Positions 15,724 through 41,535 of a stretch of DNA of 64,000 nucleotides are shown here, piece after piece (the first letter of the stretch is position 1; each line of letters opens with the position of its first letter). The notes under the pieces were generated by a model. That model saw only the letters and a program-made list of their open reading frames with translations. It was not told the origin of the DNA and made no database searches. The stretch comes from Bacteroidota bacterium (lineage in GTDB: Bacteria; Bacteroidota; Ignavibacteria; Ignavibacteriales; Ignavibacteriaceae), in NCBI GenBank assembly GCA_021777835.1, contig JAJYDC010000009.1, forward strand, positions 1 to 64,000, given 5' to 3'. The translations under genes were made by a program, and so were the position numbers.

Positions 15724-16737
15724 CTAGCTTGAGGAAATAATAACTCCAAATTCAAAGGTAGATTTTTGACCGGGTAGAACTGTTATTGCTTCTCTTAATT
15801 CGCTTCTATTAAAAGCATTAGTCATAACCTGGAGCGGTTCAATGGCGATTGATTTTCTTGGGCGCACCGTTAATAAATCACCGGTAAATACCAAAGTAAC
15901 ACCTCCCTTTTGAGTCAGAGATATTTTCAATCCATTATCAGGGTCATAAATATAAGCTGTCGAAATACCATTTGTATCTTTGGCAATCTTATCGTAGCAG
16001 TGATCAATTTTTCTATGGCTTATAACTCGAAATTGCGGAGGCACGCTGCTCCTAAAATCCAATTGAGGAAAATCATTAATACTTCCATAAGCTAAACTTC
16101 CCGGCAAAGGTATATAGTTTTGATCCAATAGAATAACAGATTCGGATTCTAATGATAGTATTAAGTGTTCGATACCATCATCAGTTGTTTTGAAATACGG
16201 GTGCCAGCCACTAGAATAAGGTAAGGGAATATCTCCCACATTTTCTGCAATAATCTTTACGTCTAAATGAGAATCATGCAGCTTATATTTGATAAAGAGA
16301 TCCAACGCGAACGGATATCCCTTAAATATTCCGGGACGTATCATTGTAGTTGATAAAGTGACCTCAATAAAGCTGTCGGTTATCTCAAGATTGTATATTT
16401 CGAATGGTATCAAGTGAGAAAATCCATGGATAACTTTCCCATTTATGGAATTTGGTTCCATGCGATATTTGTTTCCATTAAATTGATAAGTATCATCAGA
16501 AATTCTATTAGTAAAGGGAGCCATCATCCAACATCTTGAACCTTCTCCCTCTAATAGTTCGGTAGGCGACATAAAACTATCCAGGATATTAAAAATTCTT
16601 CCGTTTACCGGTATATTAAATTTTAATGGAGTAGCCCCTGTTAAAGATATTTGAAACCTTGAACCATTGCTTTCATCAGAAAGAATAACAGTTTTATAGA
16701 TACCAAATTTTATTTCAGAAAATTTATATTTACTCAA
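15724..16737 (-). CDS. galM: Aldose 1-epimerase (mutarotase)
   Basis: This is a 337-residue GalM-family enzyme. The residues known to be catalytic in the family are present: H104 in KVIHGFSH, H179 in GWHPYF and E300 in IAIEPLQVM. A substrate-binding arginine in APFTNRIS is also kept. It interconverts alpha and beta anomers of aldoses such as galactose so that the downstream kinase gets its preferred anomer. The start is a TTG at 16737 without a clear Shine-Dalgarno site, so the N-terminus is slightly uncertain. It is the last gene of the long minus-strand sugar locus, 24 bases after the epimerase gene. Substrate choice (galactose or another hexose) is inferred from the locus. Confidence 0.9.
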   Translation of the reverse strand: MSKYKFSEIKFGIYKTVILSDESNGSRFQISLTGATPLKFNIPVNGRIFNILDSFMSPTELLEGEGSRCWMMAPFTNRISDDTYQFNGNKYRMEPNSINGKVIHGFSHLIPFEIYNLEITDSFIEVTLSTTMIRPGIFKGYPFALDLFIKYKLHDSHLDVKIIAENVGDIPLPYSSGWHPYFKTTDDGIEHLILSLESESVILLDQNYIPLPGSLAYGSINDFPQLDFRSSVPPQFRVISHRKIDHCYDKIAKDTNGISTAYIYDPDNGLKISLTQKGGVTLVFTGDLLTVRPRKSIAIEPLQVMTNAFNRSELREAITVLPGQKSTFEFGVIISSS

Positions 16738-16761
16738 AAAGTAGATTCAATTCAATTTTTA

Positions 16762-17700
16762 TTAATTAAAAATATTTACAAAATATTTAATCGTATCCTT
16801 CAACCCATCCGATAAAGAATATTTCGGCTTAAAGCCAAGGTTTAAAGTAGTAAGATTTATTGATGATAAGCTATGCTTAATATCTCCTGCTCTAGTTTCC
16901 TCATAGACAATTTTGCTATTACTATTTGTTTCTTTGATTATCAATTTTGCAATTTCATTTATAGATACAGCATCGCCTCTACCGACATTAAAAACGCCCG
17001 TAATATTTTCATTAGTTGCGGCTAGGACGTTTGCCTGCACGACATCTTTAACATAAACGAAGTCTCTTGTTTGCTCACCGTCTCCGTAAATAACTATAGG
17101 TTCATTTTTTATAGCTTTGCTAATAAATATCGGTATTGCCGCAGCATATTGACTTTTAGGGTCTTGTCTAGGTCCAAACACATTAAAATAACGTAATGCA
17201 GTACCTTTTAAGGAGTAATTCTCATGATATACCTGCAAGTAATATTCGCCGTCCAATTTAGTAATTCCATAAGGAGATTTAGGTTTAGGCAGCATTGATA
17301 TTTCTTTAGGAGATTCAGGATTTTCTCCGTAAATAGCGGCGCTACTGCTATGAACAATTTTTTTTACTTTGTGTTTAGCCGCAGCATCAAGGACGTTCAA
17401 CAGACCGTTTATATTAATATCAACGCATTCTATTGGTTTTTGTATTGATTCAGGAACTGATATCATTGCAGCAAGATGATGGACATAAGAAGCATTTTCC
17501 AATATATCAAAAACGGCTTCCCTATCGGTAATACTAACTTTATGAAAGGCAACATTTTTAGATGAATCTATATTTTTAATATATCCGCTTCTTAAATTAT
17601 CAATAACATGAACCTCTGCATTTCTGCTTTCCCAATATTCGACTAAATGAGAGCCAATAAATCCAGCTCCGCCTGTTATTACTACTTTAATATTTTCCAT
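16762..17700 (-). CDS. NAD-dependent UDP-sugar 4-epimerase-like SDR enzyme (GalE-like)
   Basis: The protein has 312 residues of the extended SDR family. The NAD-binding GGAGFIG lies at 10-16, the serine-containing VHSSSAAIYG at about 116-125, and the YxxxK pair is Y144/K148 (PYGITK). LRYFNVFGPRQDP and GEQTRDFVYVKDVV are typical of UDP-glucose or UDP-N-acetylglucosamine 4-epimerases. Set between a mutarotase, a ROK protein, a pyrophosphorylase-like enzyme and a GHMP kinase, it most likely converts UDP-galactose to UDP-glucose, or UDP-GalNAc to UDP-GlcNAc. The sequence alone does not settle which, and other SDR epimerases or dehydratases share these motifs. Confidence 0.85.
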   Translation of the reverse strand: MENIKVVITGGAGFIGSHLVEYWESRNAEVHVIDNLRSGYIKNIDSSKNVAFHKVSITDREAVFDILENASYVHHLAAMISVPESIQKPIECVDININGLLNVLDAAAKHKVKKIVHSSSAAIYGENPESPKEISMLPKPKSPYGITKLDGEYYLQVYHENYSLKGTALRYFNVFGPRQDPKSQYAAAIPIFISKAIKNEPIVIYGDGEQTRDFVYVKDVVQANVLAATNENITGVFNVGRGDAVSINEIAKLIIKETNSNSKIVYEETRAGDIKHSLSSINLTTLNLGFKPKYSLSDGLKDTIKYFVNIFN

Positions 17701-17717
17701 TTATCGATTTCTTATAA

Positions 17718-18932
17718 TTATACATACGCAATCGGATTTAAGTGGTCAACCTCAAATAAATCCCTTGCTAAATAAATTGCTACACCCAAAGCTCCGGCTT
17801 TATTGCCAAGCTTTGATGTAACAAATCTTACTTTTTTATTCAATTGAACTAAGGAATGTTTCATGGCATTACTTTTTATAGAATCCAGAAGATAAGGAGC
17901 TGCATTAGATACACCGCCGCCCAATATAATTAATGAAGGGTTAAACAAGTTTATTAGAACGGCTATTCCAGAGCCAAGATATCTGCCTGCTTCTTCGATT
18001 ATTTCTATAGAAAATTGATCACCGCGGTTTGCAGCTTCAAATACCATCTTTGAATCTATCTGTTCAATGTTTATATTTTCACCCGATAGCATTGTAGTAG
18101 CACCTTCAGATATTCTAGCTTTAGCGATATGCGCAATAGCTCTGCTTGAGGATACAGTTTCAAGGCATCCTTTCTTACCGCAGTAGCAAAGATCACCATC
18201 AGGAATTACTTGAATGTGTCCGAATTCCCCGGCGTAACCATCTTCGCCATAATATACTTTGCCATCCAGAATAATTCCCAGACCGAGTCCCCAGCCAACA
18301 TTAACGCAAAGAACGTTCTTTTCATTTTTAGCTTCACCGAACCATAATTCGCCAAGAGCCATTGCTTGCAAGTCATGTTCAATATGAACCGGCTTTTTGA
18401 ACTTCTCTTCTAATATTTCTTTCGCAGATCTTTCTCCGAAGTTCAAATAAGTCTCGCTTAAGCCTTTTCTTCCTTTAACCATACCAGGTATAGAAATACC
18501 AATCCCTAGTAATTTATTCCAGCTAATTTTCGCTTCAGAGATAACGCTTTTTATTTCTTTATCTAATTGATCTATCAGGCTTATATCATTACTGAGAGGT
18601 ATAGAAATTTTTCTTACATCGGCTAAAACATTATGCTCTAAGTCAAGAACAATAAAATTTGTAAATAATCTGCCAATATCTATCCCCAAAATAAATCCTG
18701 CTTTACCGTTAAGCTTAACCAAATACGGGGGTCTTCCAGCTTGTGTATTGTCTTTATCCTTAACCTCAATTATTAAGTTTTCTTTTGCTAAAGAAGAGAT
18801 AATATTAGAGACTACCGGAAGAGTAATACCCGTATTTTTCATTAAGTCAGTTAAGGATAATTGCCCGTAATCCAGTAATGCCCGTAATATTAAATTCCTT
18901 CTTATTTCATTTTTTTTTCTGACTTTACTCAT
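17718..18932 (-). CDS. ROK-family protein with N-terminal HTH (NagC/XylR-like regulator)
   Basis: This 404-residue protein starts with a winged helix-turn-helix (about residues 8-65, LTDLMKNTGITLPVVSNIIS) and continues as a ROK fold. The nucleotide-binding LGIDIGRLFTN follows at about 82-92. The sugar site (EHDLQAMALGE, with the kinase-type Asp at 187) and the zinc motif GHIQ...CYCGKKGCLE (H239, C249, C251, C256) complete the fold. ROK repressors of this build respond to N-acetylglucosamine, xylose or similar sugars. Because the Asp of ROK kinases is kept, it could also phosphorylate sugar. Lying inside the sugar gene run with a 4-base gap to the nucleotidyltransferase gene, it is the best candidate regulator of the locus. 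The inducer is unknown. Confidence 0.88.
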   Translation of the reverse strand: MSKVRKKNEIRRNLILRALLDYGQLSLTDLMKNTGITLPVVSNIISSLAKENLIIEVKDKDNTQAGRPPYLVKLNGKAGFILGIDIGRLFTNFIVLDLEHNVLADVRKISIPLSNDISLIDQLDKEIKSVISEAKISWNKLLGIGISIPGMVKGRKGLSETYLNFGERSAKEILEEKFKKPVHIEHDLQAMALGELWFGEAKNEKNVLCVNVGWGLGLGIILDGKVYYGEDGYAGEFGHIQVIPDGDLCYCGKKGCLETVSSSRAIAHIAKARISEGATTMLSGENINIEQIDSKMVFEAANRGDQFSIEIIEEAGRYLGSGIAVLINLFNPSLIILGGGVSNAAPYLLDSIKSNAMKHSLVQLNKKVRFVTSKLGNKAGALGVAIYLARDLFEVDHLNPIAYV

Positions 18933-18936
18933 AATG

Positions 18937-19809
18937 TTATAACTTAAAATTGGAAAAGTGATTTTCTAAATATTTTTTAACGATCAATATATCATTTTTA
19001 ACAGTTAAATCGGGAACATGTTCCCCTAATGAATATGCAAAGACACTCTGAGGCATTTCATTTGCTAACATTTTAACCGCGGTTGGAAGTTCCTTTTCCT
19101 GTCTTACAGGATGAAAAGGTACTTTTTCTAAAAAGGGAAAAATCATATCATATTGAAGGCTAAATATATTCATACTTACACCAATAATTCCATCTTTACT
19201 TCTAGCTTTTTCAATTTCTTCTTCCGTAGGTTTTTCAAGAATATCGACTAAGAAATTATCTTTATCTTTAAATGTAACAGCAAATTTTGAAATACGGTCT
19301 AATTCAAACTCTAATGAATCACGGTCATAATCAATCATCGCATTTTTATAATCTTCTTTCAGCATTAACTTCAAAGCAATCTTAGAGTAAAGATTATCGC
19401 TATTACATACAGTAAATCTTTTACCCGACCAATCACTTTTGGATTGCAGTCCTTGAAACAAAGCATCCGCTGTTCCGATAGGTTTTTCTTTTCCGAATGG
19501 AATTTTTTGAACTGCATAAGAAATGCTTAGTCCATAAAACTTATTATCTGTATTTTTTTCTCCGTAGTACTTTTTAATGCTATCATCCTTTTCGCCGATG
19601 ACAATTAATATTTCTTTGTACCCGGATTCTCTAGCATTATACAAGAGGTAATCAAGGAATGGTCTATAATCCTGTCCGACTCCTATCATTGATTTCGTTT
19701 TAAGATTTGCATCCTCAATTAACCGGTTTTCTACATTGTCTTTTAACTCAGCAGGCTTTTTCATGCGTGAAGAGATGCCTCCGGCTAGAATTATCAATTT
19801 CCCTTCCAT
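18937..19809 (-). CDS. NDP-sugar pyrophosphorylase-like nucleotidyltransferase
   Basis: The protein has 290 residues. Its N-terminal LAGGISSRMKKP (about 8-19) is the nucleotide-binding signature of sugar-1-phosphate nucleotidyltransferases, and FTVCNSDNLYS is the expected metal-binding Asp segment. The gene starts on the last base of the GHMP kinase stop region (1-base overlap), so the two are almost certainly co-translated. The likely role is to join UTP (or another NTP) to the sugar-1-phosphate made by that kinase, giving the substrate for the GalE-like epimerase. This would replace the galactose-1-phosphate uridylyltransferase (GalT), which I do not find here. The nucleotide and sugar specificities are inferred. 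Confidence 0.8.
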   Translation of the reverse strand: MEGKLIILAGGISSRMKKPAELKDNVENRLIEDANLKTKSMIGVGQDYRPFLDYLLYNARESGYKEILIVIGEKDDSIKKYYGEKNTDNKFYGLSISYAVQKIPFGKEKPIGTADALFQGLQSKSDWSGKRFTVCNSDNLYSKIALKLMLKEDYKNAMIDYDRDSLEFELDRISKFAVTFKDKDNFLVDILEKPTEEEIEKARSKDGIIGVSMNIFSLQYDMIFPFLEKVPFHPVRQEKELPTAVKMLANEMPQSVFAYSLGEHVPDLTVKNDILIVKKYLENHFSNFKL

Positions 19810-20906
19810 TACTTAGCTGCCTCCAAAACACTACTATGAGTCCCTTTATCTACCTGAATGATATAGCTCTTGCCTCCTTCTTTTTCAATTGCGTCATTTA
19901 CCTCATTAGTATGTTGAGGAGCATAGGCAAACATGCATCCCCCGCCACCTGAGCCGTTTATCTTCGCCCCGTAGGCTCCGGCTTTAAGTGCAGAATCAAT
20001 CATTCTATCAATTTTGGGAGTAGAGATTTTCAAAACGTCTCTAAGTATCGCTTGATGTTCAGTTAACATAAGACCAATTTCTTTATGGTCAATCGGGGAT
20101 TTTAATAATAGTTTTTTAGCTTTTCTAGTTATATCTCGATTCTTTATTGTTCCTTCAAGAAGTTCAATTTGTTCTTTGTTAAGGTCTTTAGTAAACCGAC
20201 CTGTTTCATTTAAATCAATATTTTGCAATGAGAAGTCCGGATATTTTTTCTGAAGTTCTTTAGAGACATTTTGAATTTGATTTTTTACTCTTGCAAGAAT
20301 AAATTTTGTATCTTTTGGTTCTTGAGAATCACCCAGAACGAATGATCCAAGATTTGAATTTATTCTTTCTACATTGACTTTTGGATAAGATTCTAAAAAT
20401 ATAATCCCTCCCACAGCCGTTGAATATTGATCCATCATACCGCCCGGTTCTGCGAACTCAAGGACTTCAGCCTCGTAGGCAAAATAAGCAATCTCTTCGG
20501 CGCTTAATTTTCTTGCCTGATCGCTCATCTGGGTTAGAAAATTAACCCATGCGATAATCAAGGCAGATGAACTTGAAGTACCTGCATTGATCGGGATTTT
20601 CCCTTTTACGGTACAATCAACGCCATTTGAGAAAGTAAAGCCATTGCGACTTAATACATTTAAGGTACTCTTAAAGTAATCTCTTTCCCTATCATATTTA
20701 ATGGGAAAATCTAAAGAAAAAATTTCTTTATCATTAATATCGGGTAAGTTGATGTTGATTAAATTATCATTTCTTTTGTTTCCTTCAATAGATACTCTTA
20801 AAGAAATTGCACAAGCAATTATCGGGAGTTTTAAGTAGTCTTGATGTTCACCGAACAAGCATACTCTACCCGGTGTTGAAACAGTTAATTCACTATAGTT
20901 TTTCAT
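19809..20906 (-). CDS. GHMP-family sugar kinase (galactokinase-like)
   Basis: This 365-residue kinase has the three GHMP motifs. They are TPGRVCLFGEHQDY near residues 11-24 (the galactokinase-type signature has GEHTDY here), the phosphate-binding GKIPINAGTSSSSA at about 102-115, and INGSGGGGCMFAYAP near the C-terminus. It should phosphorylate C1 of a sugar with ATP in the cytosol. Galactose is the first guess; GalNAc or another hexose is possible, since the Gln in GEHQDY differs from classical galactokinases. It is followed directly by the nucleotidyltransferase gene and preceded by the SSS symporter gene (15-base gap), which places uptake, phosphorylation and activation in a row. Confidence 0.85.
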   Translation of the reverse strand: MKNYSELTVSTPGRVCLFGEHQDYLKLPIIACAISLRVSIEGNKRNDNLININLPDINDKEIFSLDFPIKYDRERDYFKSTLNVLSRNGFTFSNGVDCTVKGKIPINAGTSSSSALIIAWVNFLTQMSDQARKLSAEEIAYFAYEAEVLEFAEPGGMMDQYSTAVGGIIFLESYPKVNVERINSNLGSFVLGDSQEPKDTKFILARVKNQIQNVSKELQKKYPDFSLQNIDLNETGRFTKDLNKEQIELLEGTIKNRDITRKAKKLLLKSPIDHKEIGLMLTEHQAILRDVLKISTPKIDRMIDSALKAGAYGAKINGSGGGGCMFAYAPQHTNEVNDAIEKEGGKSYIIQVDKGTHSSVLEAAK

Positions 20907-20921
20907 ATTTTCTTTCGATGT

Positions 20922-22568
20922 TTAATTAGTATAAGCTTTTAAAAGTCCGCCAATAAAATACAATATCATTCCAGAGACACTAAGAATTGAAGCTAATTCG
21001 AGACCTTCACTTCCTAGGATAACGCCAACCAGGAATAGAACTAATCCAAGGGCAAGAATGGATAAGCTGATTTTCCCAGGTATTGTTTTAGGTATAATGT
21101 TATAAACATTATTGCTGTTCGATTCTTCTTCACTGGTTTTCTTAGCTTTCCATATATTATCTACCGTCACTGAAGTAGATTTTTTTGTAATTAAACTGAT
21201 AATAGGTGTAACCACTAAAGCTGCACCGGCAGAAATAAAAGTGGTTAAGTTAAAGTCGAATTTAAAAAAGTACTGCCCTATAATTCCTGCAATGGCGCCG
21301 CTGAAATAGCCTCCTATTGCACCCTGCCAATTAGCTCTTTTCCACAATAGACCATATACGACGGCAATTATGAAAAGCGGCATATCCATAATGGCTATAA
21401 CTGTGAGGTAGGCATTAACAGCACCTCCCAAAACCGGGACTGCATAAGCAAATGCAATCATTGCAATTCCTGCTAATATTGTTATTATTCGAGCAACCAG
21501 GATAACATCTTTATCCGTAGCCTTTCGATTAAGAACATTTTCATAAATATCACTTGCAAAAACAGTCGCAATACCATTTAGATTTCCGGAAGTTGCTGAT
21601 AATTGGGAAGAAAACAGTCCTACAACTATAATTCCTAAAATTATGTTGGGAATAAAATGAGCAAGTAATAAGGGTACAGCTGTATCAGCATTAGCTAAAT
21701 GGGGGAAAATTATTCTAGCGGCCAGACCCGGCAGATTCCATAATAAAGCAAATGGAGTAGTAATAATCGCTGCTAATACTAAACCCTTAGCGACAGTTCT
21801 GGTATTTTCTGCGCCGAAAGCCCTTTGCAGAAGACCCTGGTCAACGCAAGCCCATTCAATTCCTAGCAAGAAAATTGCCAATACAAATTTCCAACTATAT
21901 TTGCCGGACTGCTGAACCAACGTCAACGAGTCTTTCGGCAATTTAGCAATTAGTCCCGGCCACCAGCCTACATAACTCATTGCGATGGGTAATAGAATTA
22001 AGGCACCACCCAGCATTAAAATAAATTGAATAACATCAGTAAAGGCTACAGACCACATACCGCCTAACATTGTATAAATTATTACAACAACTGATAGAAT
22101 TAGAACCAGGGCGGTGAATGAGTGTAATCCTGTAATTATTTGAGCTGCGGTAACTGCAGTATACAAAATTACACCAAGCCAGAATGCCAATCTGAATACC
22201 CAAATTACTGCAACAAGAGTTCTAACTCCTTTGCTATATCGCATTTCTAAGAATTCAGGTATTGTTCTTATCCTAAGCCGCCTGAAAATTGGAATGACAA
22301 ATAATCCGGAAAAGACCATAGCCATATTACCCGTCCATGTCTGCCATATAATAGGTATTCCGTATTTGTATGCGATTCCTGACTGCCCGATAAAGCTATA
22401 AAGGTTGATATTAGTTGCTGCCAATACGGCGGCAAGGATAAAAGGTGTTAAGTTTCTACCGGCTAAATAAAAATCGTCGGAATTCCCTATCCATTTATAG
22501 AATATTGATCCAACAAAAAATATCATGCCTAAGAAGGCTACAACAATCAAGTAGTCAATCGAATTCAA
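20922..22568 (-). CDS. Sodium:solute symporter (SSS family), sugar-type
   Basis: The 548-residue membrane protein has about 14 hydrophobic segments and SSS-family features: DDFYLAGRNLTPFILAA near the N-terminus, YTMLGGMWSVAFTDVIQFI, and a SATSGNLNGIATVFASDIYE segment in the later core helices. It resembles SglT-like sugar/sodium symporters of this phylum and would bring monosaccharides or short glycosides across the inner membrane. The start is a TTG at 22568 with a GGAG site 7 bases upstream. It lies directly before the GHMP kinase gene and after a 43-residue membrane peptide gene. The transported sugar is inferred from neighbours. Confidence 0.9.
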   Translation of the reverse strand: MNSIDYLIVVAFLGMIFFVGSIFYKWIGNSDDFYLAGRNLTPFILAAVLAATNINLYSFIGQSGIAYKYGIPIIWQTWTGNMAMVFSGLFVIPIFRRLRIRTIPEFLEMRYSKGVRTLVAVIWVFRLAFWLGVILYTAVTAAQIITGLHSFTALVLILSVVVIIYTMLGGMWSVAFTDVIQFILMLGGALILLPIAMSYVGWWPGLIAKLPKDSLTLVQQSGKYSWKFVLAIFLLGIEWACVDQGLLQRAFGAENTRTVAKGLVLAAIITTPFALLWNLPGLAARIIFPHLANADTAVPLLLAHFIPNIILGIIVVGLFSSQLSATSGNLNGIATVFASDIYENVLNRKATDKDVILVARIITILAGIAMIAFAYAVPVLGGAVNAYLTVIAIMDMPLFIIAVVYGLLWKRANWQGAIGGYFSGAIAGIIGQYFFKFDFNLTTFISAGAALVVTPIISLITKKSTSVTVDNIWKAKKTSEEESNSNNVYNIIPKTIPGKISLSILALGLVLFLVGVILGSEGLELASILSVSGMILYFIGGLLKAYTN

Positions 22569-22591
22569 TTTTTTCTCCGTCGTTTATATTT

Positions 22592-22723
22592 TTAGTTACT
22601 TTTATTTTTTTCTTTGCGTTTTTTAAGGAGTTTTTTAAACTCCCTAATTGGTACTATAATCCAAACAACCAGGATGGAAAATCCTATTGCCCAAATACCC
22701 CAGGTTCTCCAGTCAAAATACAT
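22592..22723 (-). CDS. 43-residue single-span membrane peptide upstream of the symporter
   Basis: This gene is easily missed. It has an ATG at 22723 with AGGAG 5 bases upstream, and 43 codons to a TAA. The protein begins MYFDWRTWGIWAIGFS, crosses the membrane once (ILVVWIIVPI), and ends in a strongly basic tail (KKLLKKRKEKNK). It lies 13 bases after the stop of the clan GH-D hydrolase gene and 24 bases before the TTG of the SSS symporter gene. The spacing, ribosome-binding site and positive-inside tail argue for a real protein. A role as an accessory subunit of the symporter is my inference from position; I do not recognise a family. Confidence 0.65.
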   Translation of the reverse strand: MYFDWRTWGIWAIGFSILVVWIIVPIREFKKLLKKRKEKNKSN

Positions 22724-22735
22724 GCATGCTCCTAT

Positions 22736-29807: not shown

Positions 29808-29812
29808 AAGTT

Positions 29813-32118: not shown

Positions 32119-33864
32119 CTACTTCATGAGTACCATTTTCTTTGTAATCTGTTGATTACCTTGAATAAGGGTATAGAAATAAACGCCGCTTGACAAATTA
32201 TCCATATTGACTTGATAATTGTAATCGCCTTTATTCTTATACGAATTATTAACTAAAGTTTTTACTAATTGTCCCATCAAATTGTAAATTTTCAGACTCA
32301 CATTACCAGCCTGAGACAAGCTGAATTTAATGTTTGTTGTAGGATTAAAAGGATTCGGATATGCTTCATAGAGAGCAAACTGATTAGGTACTTGTGCAAC
32401 AGTTTTTGGAACACCTGTATAACCGCCGGTAAACCAACCCGGATCTCCAACCGGTTGACCATCAGTGCCTGCGTTCTTTAAAGCTGTGTTACTGTACTGC
32501 ATATCTGCTAGCTCAGGAAGCGGCCAAGCAGGAATCCAGTTCGAACCAGTTACACTCTGAGGTTGATACCCATAGATATCAGTAGTGGCTGAATTTGTTC
32601 TAATATCTACGCAATACTGAAATATTCCTACACCGTTTCCGGTATTATTCAGCAATACTTTATCAATCGAAGATCCATATCCGGGATCGACAAATTGATT
32701 GCCGGATTCAACCAAATTTGGCCAATGTGTTTTATCAGTAAACATTCCAGTAGTTCTTGTATTCATCCAGGAAGTTGTATAAAGTGAATCTGTATGAGCA
32801 GTATCATTCCATGCAGTCCAGAAGTTTGTAACGGCTGCCGGCTGATAATAATCATTATTCTTTACTTCAATAGTTCTTTTAGCTTCTGCTAACCATCTAA
32901 GATTTGGATTACTTGCGTCTGATGGGTCAAAAACGGTATCCTTAGCAGCATCAAGAGTATCTAAATCAATAATTGACCCTACCTCAATTGACCATAATTG
33001 ATCCCACATGCCTTGATATTCCGGAATGGTAATACCGCCAACCCAGTTAGCATAAAATATATTATTGTTAATTTTTGCATCTGTTACGTTAAAAATCCAG
33101 AATGGATTTTGGAAAGTTAAAAGGACACTATTATGAGTAAATTCAAAATACTTAGTATATACAGAAGTTACAGGGCAAGCAGCGTAAGCATTGATAGCAA
33201 GTATAGTGTTATTTCTCATTACAATTGAATCAGTTATAGCACTGTTGTTCTGATTTCTTAAAGCTTCGCCAGAATACCATTGAGTGGCTGATACCATGTT
33301 TCTAAATTTACAATTGGTAACGAACATATCATCCCAGTTTCCGCTATAACTTATAGCGTTCTCCGGCCAATCTTCGAATATTACATTATCAACATAAAGT
33401 TTAATATAATCACCGGAAATTTGAATTAGCGCTCCTATTCCGTTTACATTAAGCTGATTAATTGTGTTATTCGTAGCCAGACCGGTAAGATAAAGGTTCT
33501 TGAACGTTCCTACCGTATTGCTTCCGTTCATAACGAACAAATAGTATGGTAAAGATCCATCGCTAAGAACACCCGGCTGAATACATGGAGGTCTGCCATT
33601 AGATCCTAGCACCCCTTCAACAGTAATACTTGTTTTAACTGAAACCGGGCCAAGGAAAATGTATGTCGTATCAAGAGAAACAAGTTTATAAACGCTATGT
33701 GCTTGCGTACCAGAAGAAGTTGTATCACTATTTATAACCTGATCTATGCTCGCCCCGTTTGCATAAACTACTAGTGTATCGCCGCTAGCAGCTAAAACTT
33801 TGCTAGACGATAAAGCAAAAACCATAACCGCCATAACTAAAGCTGCAGTTAATGTTGATTTCAT
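32119..33864 (-). CDS. T9SS-exported beta-helix-like surface protein
   Basis: This 581-residue protein has a signal peptide (ALVMAVMVFALSSSKVLA). A region of about 400 residues rich in Asn, Ser and short beta strands looks like a right-handed parallel beta-helix of the pectate-lyase-like kind (for example FTHNSVLLTFQNPFWIFNV, NNNIFYANWVGG). The last 85 residues are a T9SS type-A sorting domain (AYPNPFNPTTNIKF, SSGVYFYTLIQG, KKMVLMK), which directs export across the outer membrane. The ATG has an AGGAG site. It follows the TonB receptor gene, the place where SusD-like lipoprotein genes usually lie in Bacteroidetes. Whether it binds or cuts glycan is not known. Confidence 0.78.
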   Translation of the reverse strand: MKSTLTAALVMAVMVFALSSSKVLAASGDTLVVYANGASIDQVINSDTTSSGTQAHSVYKLVSLDTTYIFLGPVSVKTSITVEGVLGSNGRPPCIQPGVLSDGSLPYYLFVMNGSNTVGTFKNLYLTGLATNNTINQLNVNGIGALIQISGDYIKLYVDNVIFEDWPENAISYSGNWDDMFVTNCKFRNMVSATQWYSGEALRNQNNSAITDSIVMRNNTILAINAYAACPVTSVYTKYFEFTHNSVLLTFQNPFWIFNVTDAKINNNIFYANWVGGITIPEYQGMWDQLWSIEVGSIIDLDTLDAAKDTVFDPSDASNPNLRWLAEAKRTIEVKNNDYYQPAAVTNFWTAWNDTAHTDSLYTTSWMNTRTTGMFTDKTHWPNLVESGNQFVDPGYGSSIDKVLLNNTGNGVGIFQYCVDIRTNSATTDIYGYQPQSVTGSNWIPAWPLPELADMQYSNTALKNAGTDGQPVGDPGWFTGGYTGVPKTVAQVPNQFALYEAYPNPFNPTTNIKFSLSQAGNVSLKIYNLMGQLVKTLVNNSYKNKGDYNYQVNMDNLSSGVYFYTLIQGNQQITKKMVLMK

Positions 33865-34026: not shown

Positions 34027-36945
34027 TTAAAGTCCCCATCGAAGTCCCAAATCTCCGGTCATACCGTAGTTTTGAACTGCCTGAGGCACTCCGCCTCCCT
34101 GAATCACGCTTATATCATTCGCTCCATTTATGTTGTATAGATCTCCAAAAATCTGAATGTTAAACCAAGGCAATTCCTGTTTACAGGCCAAATCCCAACG
34201 GGTATAAGCGGAAGTATTAGTTCTTAATTGAGGCCAGAAGTTAGCTCCAGTAAAAATATCGGCTTGATAAAGCATAGATACCCTAATTGAAAAGTCTTTA
34301 TAATCAAATCCAAGAGAAAGGTTCGCAATATTGTCAGGCTGATCTAAAAGTCTATCAGTAAAGGATGTATCTTTGTAGCTGATTGCACGTCCGGTTGAAA
34401 TTATTTTAACGTATGGATACTGAGCTTTCGAGAAAATATGTGTGAAGTTTGCGCTAAATACTAATCCGGACAAGGGACCCGGCAGATACCAGAAATGAGT
34501 CTGCCAGTCAAGTTCCATTCCATAGTTGTTAATCATGTAGGAATCATTTACATAAGTAGTTACACTATAAGTTCCTGTAGGTGTTGAGGATGTAAGACTA
34601 GCAGGAAAATATTGCTGAGCACTCGCACCCGATACATAGAAGGTCCACGGATAAATTAAATTATCAATTTGTTTTAGAAAAGCGCCTGCAGTGAACAATC
34701 CTATTGTATTATTATAAAATGAAAAATAAGCGTCATAATTTCGAGACCTGGATGGTAATGTTTTATAATTATTCCATGCTATAGTCCCATTTCCGACATC
34801 AATTCTCGGAATGATTGCGTTAAAATCCGGGTAGGCTATCGTGTTAGTATATGATAGACGAACATCGAACCAAGTTAGAGGTTTATATCTCAATGAAAAA
34901 TCCGGAAGCCAGTACCCGTGATTTTGGGTTACAGTTGTGTCATAGTGATTATATGCATTAAAAGAATTTCTGCTTTCTATTCCACGAACGCCGGTATAAA
35001 CAGACTCAAGATTCTGATAACGTACACCGGGTATGAAAGTTATTTCAGGTCCGATATTTACAACTGACATTAAATAAAATGCCGATTGGTATTCATTTCC
35101 TGAATAATTATAAGTATTAGATAGGAAATTATCATGACTAAATGCCTGAGAACCATTGTTTGCAGCAATGTTCTCTACATTCCGTTTTAATAGATCAACC
35201 ATTTGTGATAATTTTGCGAGACTCAGCGGCTCAACTAAAGCGTAATCACCGTTAAGGAATTTGCCATAATTATAATTAGGATCGGCAAAATCAGTAATTG
35301 GGATGTTGTACTTTGCGCTTTGAGGCAATGAGAAATATGAAATTATTAAATCATTTGCATAAGATGCACCGCCATATTGGAAACCGCCCCCATCATACTG
35401 GTCATAACTATATGATCTAGTTTGATATCTGTACATACCTCCGAATTTAATCATTGCAGTGATTAGGTCTGAAAAATTAATATTTGTTTTAAAATCCAAT
35501 GATCCTGTTAATGCGCGCTCACGAGAGAAACTACTGTTGTTATAAACTGTGTTTAAGATAGTTTTGGAAAAATTAGTAATTACTGATTTTGGAACATCTA
35601 TTGGATTAACACTTTGGGTATTATTAAATTGACTAAGCCCTGCCGAAGGTTGAAGGAAGTTTATTGACCAGTCATTCGGATCCTTCGTCTCCGAATAAGC
35701 ATGTGAAAATTTTGCGTCCATTTTAAATATTGGCAACTGCTGTTGAAAGTCAATCCCATTTGTAATTGTTGTCGATGAGCTATTAGTATTTGATAGTGCA
35801 TAGAACAACTGATTATTTGCAATGTCGAAGGTTTCCTGTCTTGTCTGGTTATTTGAATTCCCTGTACTGAAGAAATTTGAAAGTTTAATTTTCCCTTCCG
35901 GAAGTTTATAGTCGATAACCAACGCCGCATTATTTCTTTGTATATCTCTAGGGATATCATATAGATTCAGCGCTGTAGTATAATATTGGGTTGTACTATT
36001 GCTCGCATGAGTATATGCAGCGCCCATTTCATTAGACGTTAGATTTTTTCTTTCAATATCTACTTGCGCAAAAATACCCAGACGATCATTTAGAAACCTT
36101 TCTTCTGCGCTTCCAACATATTTGTAGTTATTAAATTTGTTATAAGCATCCGAAAGATTGTTGTAGCCTCCCTGTACAAGAAGTCCAAATTTTGGAATTC
36201 CGGGTTTTCCTGCTCTTGCCTCCCTCAATTCAAAGTTTACGGTACCTCCTATTACATTAGCATCCATATCCGGAGTAACTGTTTTTGAAACCTGAATCCC
36301 TTCAAGCATATTTGAAGATATCATGCTTAGGTCTGTGCTTCTATCATCGGGATTTGAAGAAGACATTTGAATACCGTCAATCGTAATTTGATTATACTTC
36401 GGCTGCATACCGCGTATCACTACTTCAGTACCTTCGCCGCCGTTTCTAAGTACAGAAATACCGGGCAATCTTCCGACTGATTCTGCGGCATTTGCGTCTG
36501 GCAACTCCTGAATCTTAGCTGCCGAAACAACATCAAGAATTTGGTCAGACGACAACTGCTGGTTAATTGCTTGAGTTTGTCCGCTTGCTTGTGCTGTTAC
36601 TACGACTGCTTTTCCTTCAACTCCAACCGGTTCTAGTTGGAAATTTTGCTTAAGACTTTCATTTTCTTTAATCGTAGCTTTTATATTTTGCGTTTTGTAT
36701 CCGATATAAGTAGCACGCAGTGTATATGATCCGGGCTTAACATTTAGAATTACAAATCTTCCATTCATATCAGTTGCCGCGCCCATACTTGTGCCAACAA
36801 TCATTATATTAGCGCCAAAAAGACCTTCTCCTGTCTTTGCATCTTTTACATATCCTTCTACATTTGAATTTGATGCAAGCGTACTTTTACTGATAAAAAT
36901 TATTATTAAGAACAAAGCGCCCAAAACAGAAAAAATTCTATTCAT
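34027..36945 (-). CDS. TonB-dependent outer-membrane receptor with carboxypeptidase-like regulatory domain
   Basis: This 972-residue receptor has a signal peptide (SVLGALFLIIIFISKSTLA). A carboxypeptidase-like regulatory domain follows (about 27-115, VEGYVKDAKTGEGLFGANI, GRFVILNVKPGSYTLRATY). Then comes a plug (about 130-250, including LPDANAAESVGRLPGISVLR and VVIRGMQPKYNQITIDGIQM), and a long beta-barrel ends in GLRWGL. Such receptors import large substrates across the outer membrane with energy from TonB. In this locus the substrate is likely an oligosaccharide released by the secreted hydrolases. No SusD-like partner gene is present. The ATG is preceded by AAGGAGAG. Confidence 0.92.
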   Translation of the reverse strand: MNRIFSVLGALFLIIIFISKSTLASNSNVEGYVKDAKTGEGLFGANIMIVGTSMGAATDMNGRFVILNVKPGSYTLRATYIGYKTQNIKATIKENESLKQNFQLEPVGVEGKAVVVTAQASGQTQAINQQLSSDQILDVVSAAKIQELPDANAAESVGRLPGISVLRNGGEGTEVVIRGMQPKYNQITIDGIQMSSSNPDDRSTDLSMISSNMLEGIQVSKTVTPDMDANVIGGTVNFELREARAGKPGIPKFGLLVQGGYNNLSDAYNKFNNYKYVGSAEERFLNDRLGIFAQVDIERKNLTSNEMGAAYTHASNSTTQYYTTALNLYDIPRDIQRNNAALVIDYKLPEGKIKLSNFFSTGNSNNQTRQETFDIANNQLFYALSNTNSSSTTITNGIDFQQQLPIFKMDAKFSHAYSETKDPNDWSINFLQPSAGLSQFNNTQSVNPIDVPKSVITNFSKTILNTVYNNSSFSRERALTGSLDFKTNINFSDLITAMIKFGGMYRYQTRSYSYDQYDGGGFQYGGASYANDLIISYFSLPQSAKYNIPITDFADPNYNYGKFLNGDYALVEPLSLAKLSQMVDLLKRNVENIAANNGSQAFSHDNFLSNTYNYSGNEYQSAFYLMSVVNIGPEITFIPGVRYQNLESVYTGVRGIESRNSFNAYNHYDTTVTQNHGYWLPDFSLRYKPLTWFDVRLSYTNTIAYPDFNAIIPRIDVGNGTIAWNNYKTLPSRSRNYDAYFSFYNNTIGLFTAGAFLKQIDNLIYPWTFYVSGASAQQYFPASLTSSTPTGTYSVTTYVNDSYMINNYGMELDWQTHFWYLPGPLSGLVFSANFTHIFSKAQYPYVKIISTGRAISYKDTSFTDRLLDQPDNIANLSLGFDYKDFSIRVSMLYQADIFTGANFWPQLRTNTSAYTRWDLACKQELPWFNIQIFGDLYNINGANDISVIQGGGVPQAVQNYGMTGDLGLRWGL

Positions 36946-36999
36946 ATTTCTCTCCTTAATTAGTTTAATTTTAAGGTTAATAAGTATTTCAAAAACATT

Positions 37000-38745
37000 T
37001 TATTTTAATAGTATCATTTTCTTTATTTCAAAATAACTGCCTGCTTCAAGCCTGTATAGATAAACTCCACTGGATAGATTTCCACTGACAGATGACATCT
37101 GGACACTATATTTTCCAGCCGGTTGTACTTTATTTACAAGTGTCTCGACTTTCCTTCCAAGCAAATCATATATTATTAATTTGACTAACCCAGATTTTGG
37201 GATTTCATAAGTTATAATTGTACTAGGATTAAATGGGTTAGGGTAATTTTGCCCTAAATAATATGAAACATTTTTGTTTTCATTTTGTTTCACATCAGTT
37301 AAGCTGCTTATTTGGTATGTATAGCTTTGAGTTTTATAATTGTTCGGCGCAATATCCATTAGAGAATACGGAGATGCTGCCATGTTTGTCTGAAAAATTA
37401 TTTTTATATTATTTTTTATTCCATTAGGAAATAAAGTCTTTAACGGAATACTTAATTCTGATCTTCCTCCGTTGTCTGCCTTTTGCAGGCCGGCGGCAGA
37501 AGACCACGACCAATTAGAGCCTCCTGTTCCCGTGTACGAATATAGTCCGCCGTTTTCGACCATGAATTCTGCGCCGATAGAAGCACTGTCATTATAAACG
37601 TAACCTGTCTTACTAGCTGAATCTCCGTCAATATCAATATATACATGATAGAAGTAGGATGAAGAAATAGTTCCAGCAACTTGATAGCTTAAATACAAAT
37701 TTGCTGAATCATTTGTTGCCCACACATTTGTAAAGTTTGCATTTGGAGAACTTGAATAAGTTGGGTTCAAAGAATCAGCGGGAGTATTGAGAGAGCTAAT
37801 GCCCTGCCAATCACTAAAATTTCCGTCTATAATTATCTTATTGTTATTAACATACGTTACAACAGTTCCGGTAAGAATATAATTGCAGTAATCCTCGAAA
37901 TATCCGGGTAATGTGTTATATGGATTAGATGCTCCTGCATCTGTAAAGTATGTCCAGCCAATATTTAATGAAGCGGCTCGATTTACCCTATTTACATATT
38001 GACTAGCTGAGGTTGAGTAAGGAATAACATAAAAATTATCGCTGCTATATTTTCCGCACCATGAGGCGGGTGTCCATGAATCAAAGCCTGTATTCGATTC
38101 AAAAATACAAATAACATCTGAAATCCGTTGTCCGTTGTAGTACAAATAACTTTCAATTGTATTAGTCCCGGGGTTTGTTACGACTAATGCAGTTGAATCT
38201 TTTTGTTTAATATAGCCGTAAATTTGACTATAGTAAGGCTCTTGTCCTGCGACATTATCCTGTTCATCAATAAATATCCCGTCCAAAGATGGATAGAAAG
38301 AATACCATGCATCAATATCGGCTTTGACTAATGATAAAGATCTAGCACCATAAGATGTATGCACGTAACCAATTACTTTTCCGCTATCAGTATGCATGTT
38401 ACTAATAACTGCTGCATAAGATACTTCATATTGCGTTCCGGGACCAGAATTTACGTTAGCTATTGCATAAAGGCGACCCGGCATTTTAGCGGCTTGAATC
38501 GCCATACGGCTCCAATAATTTGAGCTTGAAGGGTCAAAATACGCCGGAACCATAATTTTCATATTGCTCAGTGTATTTCCGGCAATATGTTCTTTATTAT
38601 TACCATTATGAATTGGGGCACTGAATAAGACTGTTTGGATTGACAGGAAGATTGTTGATAGAAATAATATTTTAAGTATTATTCTTTGAGAAAGGTTTTT
38701 TTCGATTTTAATTTTCAGAGCGTAATGTAAATTATCATTTTGCAT
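37000..38745 (-). CDS. Spherulin-4-like secreted glycoside hydrolase with sugar-binding module and T9SS tag
   Basis: The 581-residue protein has three parts. Residues about 58-280 match the spherulin-4 family (KIMVPAYFDPSSSNYW, GKVIGYVHTSYGARS, DIDAWYSFYPSLDGIFIDE). In this family and its GH135 relatives the fold is a TIM barrel, and the IFIDE segment carries candidate catalytic acids; the characterised Sph3 enzyme cleaves alpha-1,4-galactosaminan. Residues about 295-470 resemble a CBM9/DOMON-like module (IDGNFSDWQG, FYHVYIDIDGDS). The last 85 residues are a T9SS sorting domain (NYPNPFNPSTIITY, KKMILLK). The N-terminus has a hydrophobic export segment. It is the promoter-proximal gene of the locus. 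Substrate is inferred from family knowledge. Confidence 0.78.
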   Translation of the reverse strand: MQNDNLHYALKIKIEKNLSQRIILKILFLSTIFLSIQTVLFSAPIHNGNNKEHIAGNTLSNMKIMVPAYFDPSSSNYWSRMAIQAAKMPGRLYAIANVNSGPGTQYEVSYAAVISNMHTDSGKVIGYVHTSYGARSLSLVKADIDAWYSFYPSLDGIFIDEQDNVAGQEPYYSQIYGYIKQKDSTALVVTNPGTNTIESYLYYNGQRISDVICIFESNTGFDSWTPASWCGKYSSDNFYVIPYSTSASQYVNRVNRAASLNIGWTYFTDAGASNPYNTLPGYFEDYCNYILTGTVVTYVNNNKIIIDGNFSDWQGISSLNTPADSLNPTYSSSPNANFTNVWATNDSANLYLSYQVAGTISSSYFYHVYIDIDGDSASKTGYVYNDSASIGAEFMVENGGLYSYTGTGGSNWSWSSAAGLQKADNGGRSELSIPLKTLFPNGIKNNIKIIFQTNMAASPYSLMDIAPNNYKTQSYTYQISSLTDVKQNENKNVSYYLGQNYPNPFNPSTIITYEIPKSGLVKLIIYDLLGRKVETLVNKVQPAGKYSVQMSSVSGNLSSGVYLYRLEAGSYFEIKKMILLK

Positions 38746-39183
38746 ATGATACTCTTTTTTAAATCAATTTATTTTATAATCATGCACTTTTTTATTTGTC
38801 AAATCTTTCTTATGGAATATTATAATTATTTTATTTAAAAGCAAATAATAATTAAATTATTTTAATTATTAATCTCTTTCCGCACACAATTTCTTCATAT
38901 GTTGATGTTTTGAGTACTTAGTTATCAACTATTCCCGAATCTTTCAAAGATCATTTAAGCGTTTTCTATCTAAATAGTTGGCATTTGTTCGTTTATATTA
39001 TTTTTTTTATTTATTATATGCTATTATTTAAATATATTTAATAATTATTTATATTTAGCTCTAAAGAAATATCTGTCTGAGAACTAACTAGCTTTCAGCT
39101 ATTGCGGTAATCATCCATAGGGAGGATTGCTGCAGGTATTATCTCTCGTAATTATAATATGTAAAACAATAATAGAAATAAAA
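38746..39183. promoter_or_regulatory. Divergent intergenic region between the spherulin-like gene and the NagB-PIG-L gene
   Basis: About 440 bases, very A/T-rich, separate the first gene of the minus-strand sugar locus from the divergent amino-sugar enzyme gene, so it should hold both promoters. It contains a perfect 14-base palindrome (TTAAATATATTTAA, 39028-39041), a possible operator for a ROK-type regulator, but such A/T palindromes arise easily by chance. I see no clear -10/-35 pair. Confidence 0.4.
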
Positions 39184-41535
39184 ATGGTAACCAATAAAAT
39201 GTCAGCGTTGTCAAATGTGGAGAAGATATATTTACAGAATTCAGGCAGAGAATTACTTTATTCTCCTACCGAGAAAGTAGGAATAATACAAATAAAGAAC
39301 TTCCCTGAATTAGGAAAATTAACCGCATTAAGATTTATTGAATGGGTAATAGAAAATCCCGGAGGTGTTGTCTCCCTGCCTACCGGTAAAACACCTGAGC
39401 ATTTTATAAAATGGGTAACTTATTATCTTATGAATTGGCAAAACAAAGAGGTCAAAGAGATATTAGAAAATATTGGAATAAATACGTCTTTAAAACCTGA
39501 AATGCGAAGTCTTCACTTTGTTCAAATAGATGAATTTTATCCGATAGATTCTTTTCAACACAATAGTTTCTACTATTATATACAGAGATATTATTTAAGC
39601 AATTTTGAAATGGATGCAAATAAAGCTCTCCTGATAAATGTGAATGAAATTCCGACTGCTAAAGGGATACCTATTGATCAAATATTCCCTGATAAATGTG
39701 TTGACCTATCACTTCGTTATAGATATGCGAAAACAAAGCTTGAACAGCTGCAGAAGCAAACAATTGAAATGGTCGACGAATTCTGCACCGAATATGAAAG
39801 AAAGATTCGAGAACTTGGAGGAGTAGGTTTTTTCCTCGGCGGAATAGGACCGGACGGGCACATTGGATTTAATATACAAGGCAGCGATCACTTTTCGACC
39901 ACCCGATTAATGGAAACCAACTATGAAACTCAGGCAGCTGCTTCAACTGATCTTGGAGGAATAGAAATAGCAAGGAACAGACTTGTTATTACCATCGGGC
40001 TAAATACTATTACATATAACAAAGATGCTGTAGCATTAATAATTGCATCGGGAGAGGCAAAAGCAAATATTGTACGCGACTCAATCGAAAGTCCGCTTAG
40101 CAACAAATATCCTGCTTCAGTTCTTCAAAATCTATCTAAAGCCAGGTTCTACCTTACTGATGGAGCCGCTTTAAGATTGCAGGAAAGAAGATTAGGAGAC
40201 ATTAAGAACGAAAATCCGATTTCTGAATTCTCAATTGAGCGTGCAATTATTAACCTTGCTGTACAAAAGCAAAAAGAAGTCTTGAAATTAAATGTTGACG
40301 ATTATAATGATGATGAATTTGGTAAATATATTTTAAAGAAAACAGGACAATCAGTTGAAGTTATAAACCAGAAGGTACACGATTCTGTCTATAATAGATT
40401 TTATCGCGGAATTGCTCCAGTAGAAAATCAAAGAATTTTGCACACAGGTCCCCATCATGATGATATAATGCTGGGTTATTTGCCATACATTGTTCATCTT
40501 GTCCGTACTGTAACGAACAAGCATCACTTTTCAGTTCTGACAAGCGGGTTTACTGCAGTTACGAACTCTTACATGCTGGAGATTTTAGAGAACCTGAAGC
40601 ATCATTTTTCTAAAGAAGAATTTAAGAATAGACTAAACACCAAATATTTTGAAACATCATTTGAAGAAGGAATTAACCGTGATGTTAATTTATACCTGGA
40701 TGGAGTAGCAGCTAAAAGCTTGGTAATTAATAACGAAGCGCAGGCAAGAAGAACATTACGGAACCTTATTGAAATCTTTGGGAATAGTGATGTAGAATTC
40801 TTAAATGAAAAAATTAAAGAACTAATAATCTATTTTCAGACTCAATATCCAGGTAAGAAAGATTCACCGGAAGTTCAAAAGCTCAAGGGAATGCTCAGAG
40901 AATGGGAAGAAGAAATACTTTGGGCACATTTAGGATTTCATAGTGATGAGGTATCTCATTTAAGGCTTGGTTTTTACCAGGGAGAAATATTTACTGAAAA
41001 TCCGGAAATTGACAGAGATGTTTTACCGGTATTAAATCTCTTCAGAAAATTTAAGCCTACCGTAATTACTGTAGCTCTTGATCCCGAAGGCAGCGGTCCG
41101 GATACTCATTACAAGGTACTTCAAACTATATCTGAAGCTCTACGGTTATACGCAAAAGAAACAGATATTTCAAAATTGCGTATTTGGGGCTATCGCAATG
41201 TATGGTATAGATTTCATCCGGCAGAAGCAAACATATATATACCTGTAAGTCTAAATAGTTTTGCATTGATTGAAAGCATGTTCATGAACAGTTACGGTTC
41301 TCAGAAGAATGCAAGTTTTCCGAGCTTTGAGCTTGATGGACCCTTCTCTGCCCTTTCTCAGAATGTACTTGCAGAACAGTACAAAACTATAAGGTTATGC
41401 TTAGGAAGAGATTTTTTTATTAAACATGAAATCCCGAGAGTAAGAGCAGCACATGGAATGGTTTATTTAAAAGAACTTACATTAGATGAGTTCTTTACAA
41501 AATCAATTGAGTTGAAAAAATTAACTGAGAATTAG
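39184..41535 (+). CDS. nagB: Glucosamine-6-phosphate deaminase-like / PIG-L deacetylase fusion (NagB-II type)
   Basis: I start at the ATG at 39184 (783 residues). The frame is open to a TTG at 39127, but the extra residues are hydrophobic and unlike a cytosolic enzyme. Residues 40-370 are a NagB/RpiA-type isomerase fold (SLPTGKTPEHF, VQIDEFYPI, FFLGGIGPDGHIGFNIQG, NTITYNKDAVALIIASGEAK). Residues 400-770 carry a PIG-L deacetylase domain (GPHHDDIMLGYLPYI, LDPEGSGPDTHYKVLQ), with the HDD metal motif. This two-domain layout is common in the Bacteroidetes group. It would convert an amino-sugar phosphate to keto-sugar phosphate plus ammonia. The PIG-L part may remove acetyl groups. It is divergent from the glycan locus and probably shares its control. 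Confidence 0.85.
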   Translation: MVTNKMSALSNVEKIYLQNSGRELLYSPTEKVGIIQIKNFPELGKLTALRFIEWVIENPGGVVSLPTGKTPEHFIKWVTYYLMNWQNKEVKEILENIGINTSLKPEMRSLHFVQIDEFYPIDSFQHNSFYYYIQRYYLSNFEMDANKALLINVNEIPTAKGIPIDQIFPDKCVDLSLRYRYAKTKLEQLQKQTIEMVDEFCTEYERKIRELGGVGFFLGGIGPDGHIGFNIQGSDHFSTTRLMETNYETQAAASTDLGGIEIARNRLVITIGLNTITYNKDAVALIIASGEAKANIVRDSIESPLSNKYPASVLQNLSKARFYLTDGAALRLQERRLGDIKNENPISEFSIERAIINLAVQKQKEVLKLNVDDYNDDEFGKYILKKTGQSVEVINQKVHDSVYNRFYRGIAPVENQRILHTGPHHDDIMLGYLPYIVHLVRTVTNKHHFSVLTSGFTAVTNSYMLEILENLKHHFSKEEFKNRLNTKYFETSFEEGINRDVNLYLDGVAAKSLVINNEAQARRTLRNLIEIFGNSDVEFLNEKIKELIIYFQTQYPGKKDSPEVQKLKGMLREWEEEILWAHLGFHSDEVSHLRLGFYQGEIFTENPEIDRDVLPVLNLFRKFKPTVITVALDPEGSGPDTHYKVLQTISEALRLYAKETDISKLRIWGYRNVWYRFHPAEANIYIPVSLNSFALIESMFMNSYGSQKNASFPSFELDGPFSALSQNVLAEQYKTIRLCLGRDFFIKHEIPRVRAAHGMVYLKELTLDEFFTKSIELKKLTEN

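Follow-up and report, generated by a model that had tools for sequence, protein, structure and literature searches.

What is broken down by the products of a gene run that combines a Spherulin4/GH135-like protein and clan GH-D enzymes with a TonB receptor and sugar-processing genes? The question was raised by a stretch of 64,000 nucleotides from an Ignavibacteriaceae genome, here G000 (assembly GCA_021777835.1, contig JAJYDC010000009.1, positions 1 to 64,000), and this whole stretch is referred to as the window. Sticky biofilm polymers based on galactosamine are made by moulds and Pseudomonas; galactosaminogalactan (GAG) contains galactose (Gal), N-acetylgalactosamine (GalNAc) and galactosamine (GalN), and Pel-type galactosaminan contains GalN and GalNAc. 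The operon probably serves, without SusD, the utilization of an alpha-1,4-linked galactosamine polymer of one of these two kinds. Three features support a galactosamine substrate, namely the GH135 catalytic residues of one protein, a GH36 protein resembling the alpha-galactosaminidase FpGalNase, and genes of the GatZ route in the loci of relatives. The evidence throughout is sequence-based and comes from draft genomes.

Gene content and distribution of the operon

Open reading frames together with Pfam and NCBIfam scans gave a run of 14 genes in one direction, from 38745 to 15724 on the minus strand. Gaps between adjoining genes are -40 to 167 bp, and the arrangement is thus operon-like. The genes are given below in operon order (T9SS, type IX secretion system). 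Signal-like hydrophobic N-terminal stretches were judged by eye, and were present in GH36, U696, GHD877 and the surface proteins.

37000..38745, minus strand: Sph4, Spherulin4/GH135-like candidate endo-galactosaminidase with T9SS tail (PF12138, E 7.3e-38)
34027..36945, minus strand: TonB-dependent receptor, non-SusC type (TIGR01782, 333.9 bits, cut-off 310)
32119..33864, minus strand: beta-helix protein with T9SS tail (PF13229, E 0.0013; TIGR04183, 50.8 bits)
29813..32008, minus strand: GH36, predicted FpGalNase-like alpha-galactosaminidase, exported by eye (phmmer to 9awt, 3.9e-58)
27717..29807, minus strand: U696, orphan of 696 amino acids, exported by eye, possible glycosidase (no family assigned)
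26335..27696, minus strand: APC-superfamily permease (PF13520, 1.9e-45)
25406..26374, minus strand: GNAT acetyltransferase (PF13527, 6.6e-24; weak Eis-like similarity)
22736..25369, minus strand: GHD877, 877 amino acids, predicted second clan GH-D-like exo-glycosidase, exported by eye (hhalign to GH36)
20922..22568, minus strand: SSS sodium/solute symporter (PF00474, 3.6e-45; TIGR00813, 197 bits, cut-off 184)
19809..20906, minus strand: GHMP sugar kinase, galactokinase type (PF10509, 2.9e-8; PF00288; PF08544)
18937..19809, minus strand: nucleotidyltransferase (PF00483, 6.6e-9)
17718..18932, minus strand: ROK regulator with N-terminal helix-turn-helix (PF00480, 2e-66; NagC/Mlc-type matches below cut-offs)
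16762..17700, minus strand: nucleotide-sugar 4-epimerase, GalE/TviC/WbpP-like (PF01370, 3.7e-65)
15724..16737, minus strand: aldose-1-epimerase, a GalM-like mutarotase (PF01263, 6.2e-28)

A first-pass annotation had described about 15 co-directional genes and a divergent NagB-PIG-L gene. Its gene set and the families it named were recovered, although the count is 14 and the APC permease, the GNAT acetyltransferase and the beta-helix T9SS protein had gone unnamed. The same gene order, which it had proposed to look for in relatives, recurs throughout in G007. Family and neighborhood scans located the locus or a recognizable part of it in 17 genomes, overlaps being counted once (G000, G002, G006, G007, G009, G010, G037, G046, G333, G334, G336, G337, G338, G340, G341, G342 and G343). 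Since it recurs in G007 and in 15 further genomes, some of them with fragments only, it is not a chance neighborhood. Scanning genomes with a GH36 profile gave 14 loci, all in metagenome-assembled genomes (MAGs) titled Bacteroidetes, Ignavibacteria or KSB1; in G342 little was found beyond GH36. For the GH36 tally, matches better than 1e-50 were kept, which gave 7 of 20 genomes. G002, without a strong GH36, was counted as locus-bearing from its nucleotidyltransferase-GHMP-SSS genes and a GHD877 fragment on one contig.

The GH36 and Spherulin4/GH135-like proteins

The best solved relatives of the GH36 protein by phmmer against the PDB were 8x1b (4.9e-59) and FpGalNase itself, the GH36 alpha-galactosaminidase of Flavonifractor plautii (9awt), followed only at 2.2e-12 by an alpha-galactosidase other than FpGalNase. 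The entry 8x1b is named an alpha-galactosidase, and its aligned letters nearly match those of FpGalNase. A profile search reached FpGalNase at 1.6e-77, and homology is full-length, with 30.7% identity over 430 residues. Residues W317, D346, D347, W387, K461, C513 and D532 of FpGalNase correspond to W314, D343, D344, W384, K470, C524 and D543 of GH36, while D463, which the automatic alignment had put on Q474, falls on D472 once a two-residue gap is set by hand after the FKxD motif. With this placement, GH36 keeps eight of the nine active-site residues given in PMC11762096, the exception being Tyr464. The two proteins have in common the catalytic residues, the patch-B Cys/Asp and the motif CYNPxHxHxxPxEST; the locus enzyme differs in its setting, beside a TonB receptor and T9SS proteins. 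It is predicted to release GalN with a free amine.

Clan GH-D enzymes are often alpha-galactosidases, and the locus could accordingly serve alpha-galactosides or alpha-galactans without an amino sugar, with GH36 and GHD877 as plain alpha-galactosidases and with the GHMP kinase, nucleotidyltransferase and epimerase as a variant Leloir route. The GalK signature on the kinase and the presence of GalM-like and GalE-like genes would suit this explanation. We consider it distinctly unlikely, however, as GH36 is far nearer to FpGalNase than to the other listed alpha-galactosidases, a canonical GalK is encoded elsewhere in the genome, the locus contains a GH135-type protein, and the loci of relatives carry SIS-deaminase and tagatose genes.

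Sph4 matched PF12138 at 130.9 bits (cut-off 30.2) and the type IX secretion model TIGR04183 at 38.3 bits (cut-off 23). Against the PDB chains of Sph3, the GH135 hydrolase of Aspergillus GAG (5d6t/5c5g), the match was E 5e-5, and in the HMMER alignment D160 and E216 of Sph4 fall on the catalytic Asp (nucleophile) and Glu222 (acid/base) of Sph3; the pair is printed as Asp196/Glu222 in PMC12054363, and chain numbering makes the aligned Asp residue 166. Sph4 is predicted to act as a surface depolymerase. It has the PF12138 domain and both catalytic residues in common with Sph3, but adds a T9SS tail and lies in a catabolic-looking operon, whereas Sph3 lies in a biosynthetic cluster. As Sph3 is a biosynthesis enzyme (PMC12054363) and UDP-sugar-type genes are present in the locus, the 14 genes might instead build or remodel an exopolysaccharide of the organism itself, the GHMP kinase, nucleotidyltransferase and epimerase making UDP-sugar precursors. 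This is highly improbable: no glycosyltransferase was found among the 14 genes by Pfam and NCBIfam scans, the TonB receptor, the symporters and the deaminase and aldolase genes of relatives point to catabolism, and the sole pel-like neighborhood seen, that of G179, looks different.

Within the phylum, Spherulin4 matches were found in 4 of 395 genomes, the window genome included, three of them above cut-off. The neighbors in G249 were a TIR effector, a KdpD-type protein and a P-type ATPase. A weak PF12138 match in G179 (L104:10243-14190) adjoins a DUF3492 glycosyltransferase, which we take to be PelF, and weak matches of this kind may be PelA-like proteins of Pel biosynthesis. As a general marker of galactosamine catabolism Spherulin4 was rejected, no such context having been found beyond this lineage in the G249 and G179 neighborhoods.

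Among the 17 locus genomes PF12138 is present in nine (G000, G007, G009, G010, G333, G334, G336, G338 and G341), a contig end cuts off the region in a tenth (G006), and the domain was not found in G002, G037, G046, G337, G340, G342 and G343. It occurs in 4 of 7 genomes with a strong GH36 and in 1 of 52 without (Fisher p 3.7e-4; kinship ignored). The seven genomes where it was not found would be compatible with a target other than galactosaminan, an alpha-GalNAc-capped glycoconjugate such as a mucin- or blood-group-like glycan, a bacterial O-antigen or an S-layer glycan. So would the history of FpGalNase, which is known from the removal of blood group A and, with an N-acetylgalactosamine deacetylase, converts A-type red cells (PMC11762096). 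Both the nine genomes with the domain, along with the contig-end loss in G006, and the lack of fucosidase, sialidase and beta-hexosaminidase families in Pfam and NCBIfam scans of the 14 genes speak against such a target, and we hold it to be rather unlikely.

Further observations concern the architecture of Sph4. Its C-terminal half (window 37000-37850, from about residue 300) also occurs on varied N-terminal parts (L082, L085, L035, L037 and L092), and may therefore be a carrier or binding module that is swapped between proteins. In G007 the Spherulin4 gene (L028:3261-5010) consists of two overlapping frames split after the catalytic domain, by a frameshift or an assembly error. G009 carries a second paralogue (L010:9417-10583) with DG (GIFFDGMA) where the first has the catalytic-pair DE, possibly with altered activity.

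Proposed galactosamine catabolism in related loci and in the window

Full GatZ, a subunit of tagatose-bisphosphate aldolase, was found in 6 of the 17 locus genomes (G002, G009, G037, G046, G334 and G343), in five of them on the GH36 contig, and these genomes carry SIS-deaminase and PfkB genes too. Together the three would form a route from galactosamine to tagatose. In G009, the genes AgaS-GatZ-EamA-PfkB-GatY immediately precede Sph4-TonB-beta-helix. A single stretch of G334 holds GH36, two DUF4832 genes, NagA-like and NagB-like genes and GHD877, then SSS, GHMP, nucleotidyltransferase, ROK, AgaS, GatZ, EamA, PfkB and GatY. The five genes from AgaS to GatY stand in the G009 order in G037, with GH36 on the same contig, and in G002, where another contig carries GHD877 fragment-SSS-GHMP-nucleotidyltransferase. 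In G046, GHMP-nucleotidyltransferase-ROK is followed by SIS-PfkB-GatZ-EamA, with GatY not seen, and in the KSB1 genome G343 GatZ and EamA lie on the GH36 contig and SIS and PfkB on a separate one. The SIS proteins of G009, G037, G334 and G002 matched the AgaS model TIGR02815 at 329-349 bits (cut-off 529), and GatZ proteins matched TIGR02810 at 542-597 bits, one of five exceeding the cut-off of 569. Not counted as GatZ were a match of 26.7 bits in G341, which is partial and stands at the cut-off, and one short extra piece each in G334 and G343.

Across 59 relatives, GatZ was present in 4 of 8 locus-bearing genomes and 0 of 51 others (Fisher p 1.5e-4); counted by GH36 alone, with G002 as GH36-negative, the figures were 3 of 7 and 1 of 52 (p 0.004). 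Only E. coli had GatZ among 14 control genomes. Eight of the 17 genomes (G000, G006, G007, G010, G333, G336, G338 and G340) have the GNAT gene in their locus, and in the stretches covered it was never seen together with GatZ (Fisher p 0.009, uncorrected for relatedness); G337, G341 and G342 showed neither. Seven of the eight GNAT genomes showed the locus GHMP kinase too, the contig of G336 not having been read that far; a locus-type GHMP kinase was not seen in G009 and G037.

Several observations weigh against a galactosamine polymer as the substrate or against the strength of these comparisons. As GatZ is absent from the window genome, the strongest evidence on the substrate comes from relatives, and only two of the six GatZ genomes (G009 and G334) have PF12138; G343, the most independent case, is without it. 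In the tagatose-type loci, GlmD is a closer match than AgaS for the SIS proteins of G046 and G343, none of the PfkB and GatY-type proteins reaches the cut-off of a tagatose-specific model, and a GalN 6-kinase was not identified. Sph4 is weakly similar to Sph3, an enzyme of GAG synthesis whose substrate is acetylated polymer (PMC12054363). In four genomes (G037, G046, G340 and G337) the match to Sph4 is confined to its C-terminal part (beginning at about residue 285-304), there fused to other N-terminal parts; in these, depolymerization would therefore have to fall to a different enzyme, perhaps the DUF4832 protein. FpGalNase Tyr464 is not conserved in GH36. With GHD877-like proteins in 11 genomes out of 296 from the phylum, the window genome included, that gene is not locus-specific. 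The genomes compared are related MAGs, and the Fisher values, which ignore ancestry, overstate their independence; G002 was examined because of its GatZ, and the other 51 relatives were not examined likewise. The tblastn search that found no GNAT in the six GatZ genomes covered fetched stretches only, not whole genomes.

The combination of SIS deaminase and tagatose-bisphosphate aldolase typical of an Aga pathway was not found in the window locus, Pfam giving no SIS gene among its 14 proteins. The GNAT protein, whose two PDB matches are both uncharacterized GNATs, is a candidate galactosamine N-acetyltransferase. Its gene is overlapped by 40 bp by that of the APC permease, a candidate galactosamine importer whose NCBIfam matches include, far below its cut-off, the fructoselysine transporter FrlA; in both cases the substrate is our guess. 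The GHMP kinase scored 116.9 bits with TIGR00131, below the cut-off of 226.65, and carries the GalK substrate signature PF10509. Since a canonical GalK is encoded elsewhere in the genome (TIGR00131, 358.8 bits), the kinase of the locus may act mainly on a different sugar, and GalNAc would be a fitting guess. Its galactose signature may favor a polymer that contains Gal, that is GAG, though GalNAc is possible as its substrate. The nucleotidyltransferase, with a single PDB match (E 0.0025, an uncharacterized protein), is a candidate UDP-sugar pyrophosphorylase. The epimerase had TviC as its best NCBIfam match (213 bits, cut-off 760) and WbgU/WbpP among its PDB matches, and its Ser277 aligned with a Ser of WbgU that is Ser also in aligned UDP-glucose 4-epimerases. 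It is possible, as a tentative reading, that the GNAT-APC-GHMP-nucleotidyltransferase-epimerase block forms a new route of GalN catabolism, by N-acetylation, C1 phosphorylation and UDP-GalNAc/UDP-GlcNAc, which replaces the Aga-type route kept by other carriers of the locus and is attached to a dedicated galactosaminan depolymerization system.

From the gene content, homology, catalytic residues and co-occurrence observed, we infer the substrate, the localization of the proteins, the order of steps and the whole conversion from GNAT to epimerase as follows. The exported Sph4 would cut the polymer at the cell surface, and the TonB receptor would take in the oligosaccharides. Exported exo-enzymes would then finish these, GH36 freeing GalN and GHD877, perhaps with U696, freeing GalNAc and/or Gal, and the SSS symporter together with the APC permease would import the sugars. 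The GNAT protein would acetylate GalN, the GHMP kinase phosphorylate at C1, the nucleotidyltransferase form the UDP-sugar and the epimerase convert it to the gluco form, under regulation by ROK. Instead of GNAT and APC, some relatives carry genes for tagatose-bisphosphate aldolase, a PfkB kinase and a SIS deaminase.

The receptor scored 72.5 bits with the SusC/RagA model TIGR04056 (cut-off 368) and no SusD-family protein was found among the 14 at E 0.01; a SusC/SusD pair was thus not found. GHD877, a distant relative of GH36, reached 18.7 bits with Pfam Melibiase (cut-off 27) and aligned with the GH36 profile by hhalign (93.7%, E 1.9e-7), its DD and FKxD motifs (DDGW at 310-313, FKWD at 404-407) being matched. 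Its model (predicted local distance difference test, pLDDT, 61) gave alpha-galactosidases and FpGalNase as the best 18 Foldseek matches, at root-mean-square deviations of 17.5-19.7 A, a fold search that weakly supports the relation to GH36. No NCBIfam or PDB relative was found for U696, and its sole Pfam match was a sub-threshold Melibiase_C at 15.3 bits. Its family occurs in 6 of 59 relatives, the window genome included, and, across 296 phylum genomes, only in the window genome itself. As a third GH-D enzyme it was rejected, hhalign to GH36 giving 0.3% and 0.7%, and the low quality of its AlphaFold model (5 sequences, pLDDT 46) ruled out a search by fold. The PF13229 match of the beta-helix protein was 18.8 bits, below the cut-off of 25.9; the protein is present in 11 of the 17 locus genomes, and 10 sequences were aligned.

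One neighboring gene was considered for membership:

39127-41535, divergent from the operon and 381 bp away: NagB-PIG-L, 802 amino acids

Among the matches listed, 3 of the 8 relatives with the locus and 22 of the 51 without it carry this gene, which in G009, G046 and G037 was not found next to the locus. It was rejected as part of the system on this lack of co-occurrence. Its NagB domain has the motif DGHIGFNI, where E. coli NagB has Glu148, and lacks an equivalent of that residue. NagB-PIG-L is common in this lineage. The central idea of the first-pass annotation, a SusD-less locus for an alpha-linked galactosamine/galactose glycan, stands, strengthened by the FpGalNase-like GH36, the GH135 residues and the galactosamine/tagatose genes of relatives; NagB-PIG-L, which it had included, is dropped, and the APC permease, the GNAT protein and the beta-helix protein are added.

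Other genes recurred in or near the loci. DUF4874-DUF4832 proteins, a candidate glycosidase family for the locus substrate, were seen in related loci (L031:12361-13827, named by Pfam, and, by similarity to it, L032, L036-L039, L082 and L099) and not in the window locus. Amidohydro_2 (PF04909) genes lie at L030:8842-9939, L030:16733-17782, L032:5983-7041, L032:11055-12143 and L096:989-2182. A second locus of G046 (L085:4501-20000) holds TonB, beta-helix, CBM9, a protein that shares the C-terminal part of Sph4, GH36, EamA, class II aldolase, PfkB (L086) and NagB-like genes. Two tRNA-Ser genes (window 14645-14992), about 0.7 kb past the operon end, are a possible insertion point of the locus.

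Comparison with known systems and implications

Xanthomonas carbohydrate-utilization TonB (CUT) loci and SusCD loci consist of a receptor, glycosidases, an inner-membrane transporter, sugar-processing genes and a regulator. The window locus has this same make-up, but lacks SusD and has a non-SusC receptor and a T9SS-tailed depolymerase. Enterobacterial aga/kba operons serve GalNAc and GalN catabolism, and the loci of relatives likewise carry SIS (AgaS-type in four), PfkB, GatY-type and GatZ/KbaZ genes, there joined to depolymerases, whereas the window locus has GNAT and APC instead. The BT4240-50 GalNAc locus of B. thetaiotaomicron is also a glycan locus in which a dedicated kinase phosphorylates GalNAc at C1, but that kinase is of the APH family, a SusD-like protein is present, and the target is mucin (PMC11992087). 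A metaproteome paper on woodchip-bioreactor bins assigns bacterial GH135, the same family, to fungal GAG by annotation, and its excerpts describe no comparable gene locus (PMC11653725).

In listings of open-licence PubMed Central papers no galactosaminan utilization locus was found. The operon is a variant form of glycan-utilization locus, most probably one for galactosaminan. Sph4, GH36, GHD877, U696, the beta-helix protein and DUF4832 would be candidate biofilm-degrading tools. The endo-alpha-1,4-galactosaminidase families have mostly bacterial members, and why bacteria hold four of them is given as an open question (PMC12054363). A locus that joins a GH135-like enzyme with a GalN-type exo-glycosidase and, in relatives, with galactosamine catabolism would, if the reading is true, provide one answer, that some bacteria feed on the cationic polymers of fungal and bacterial biofilms.

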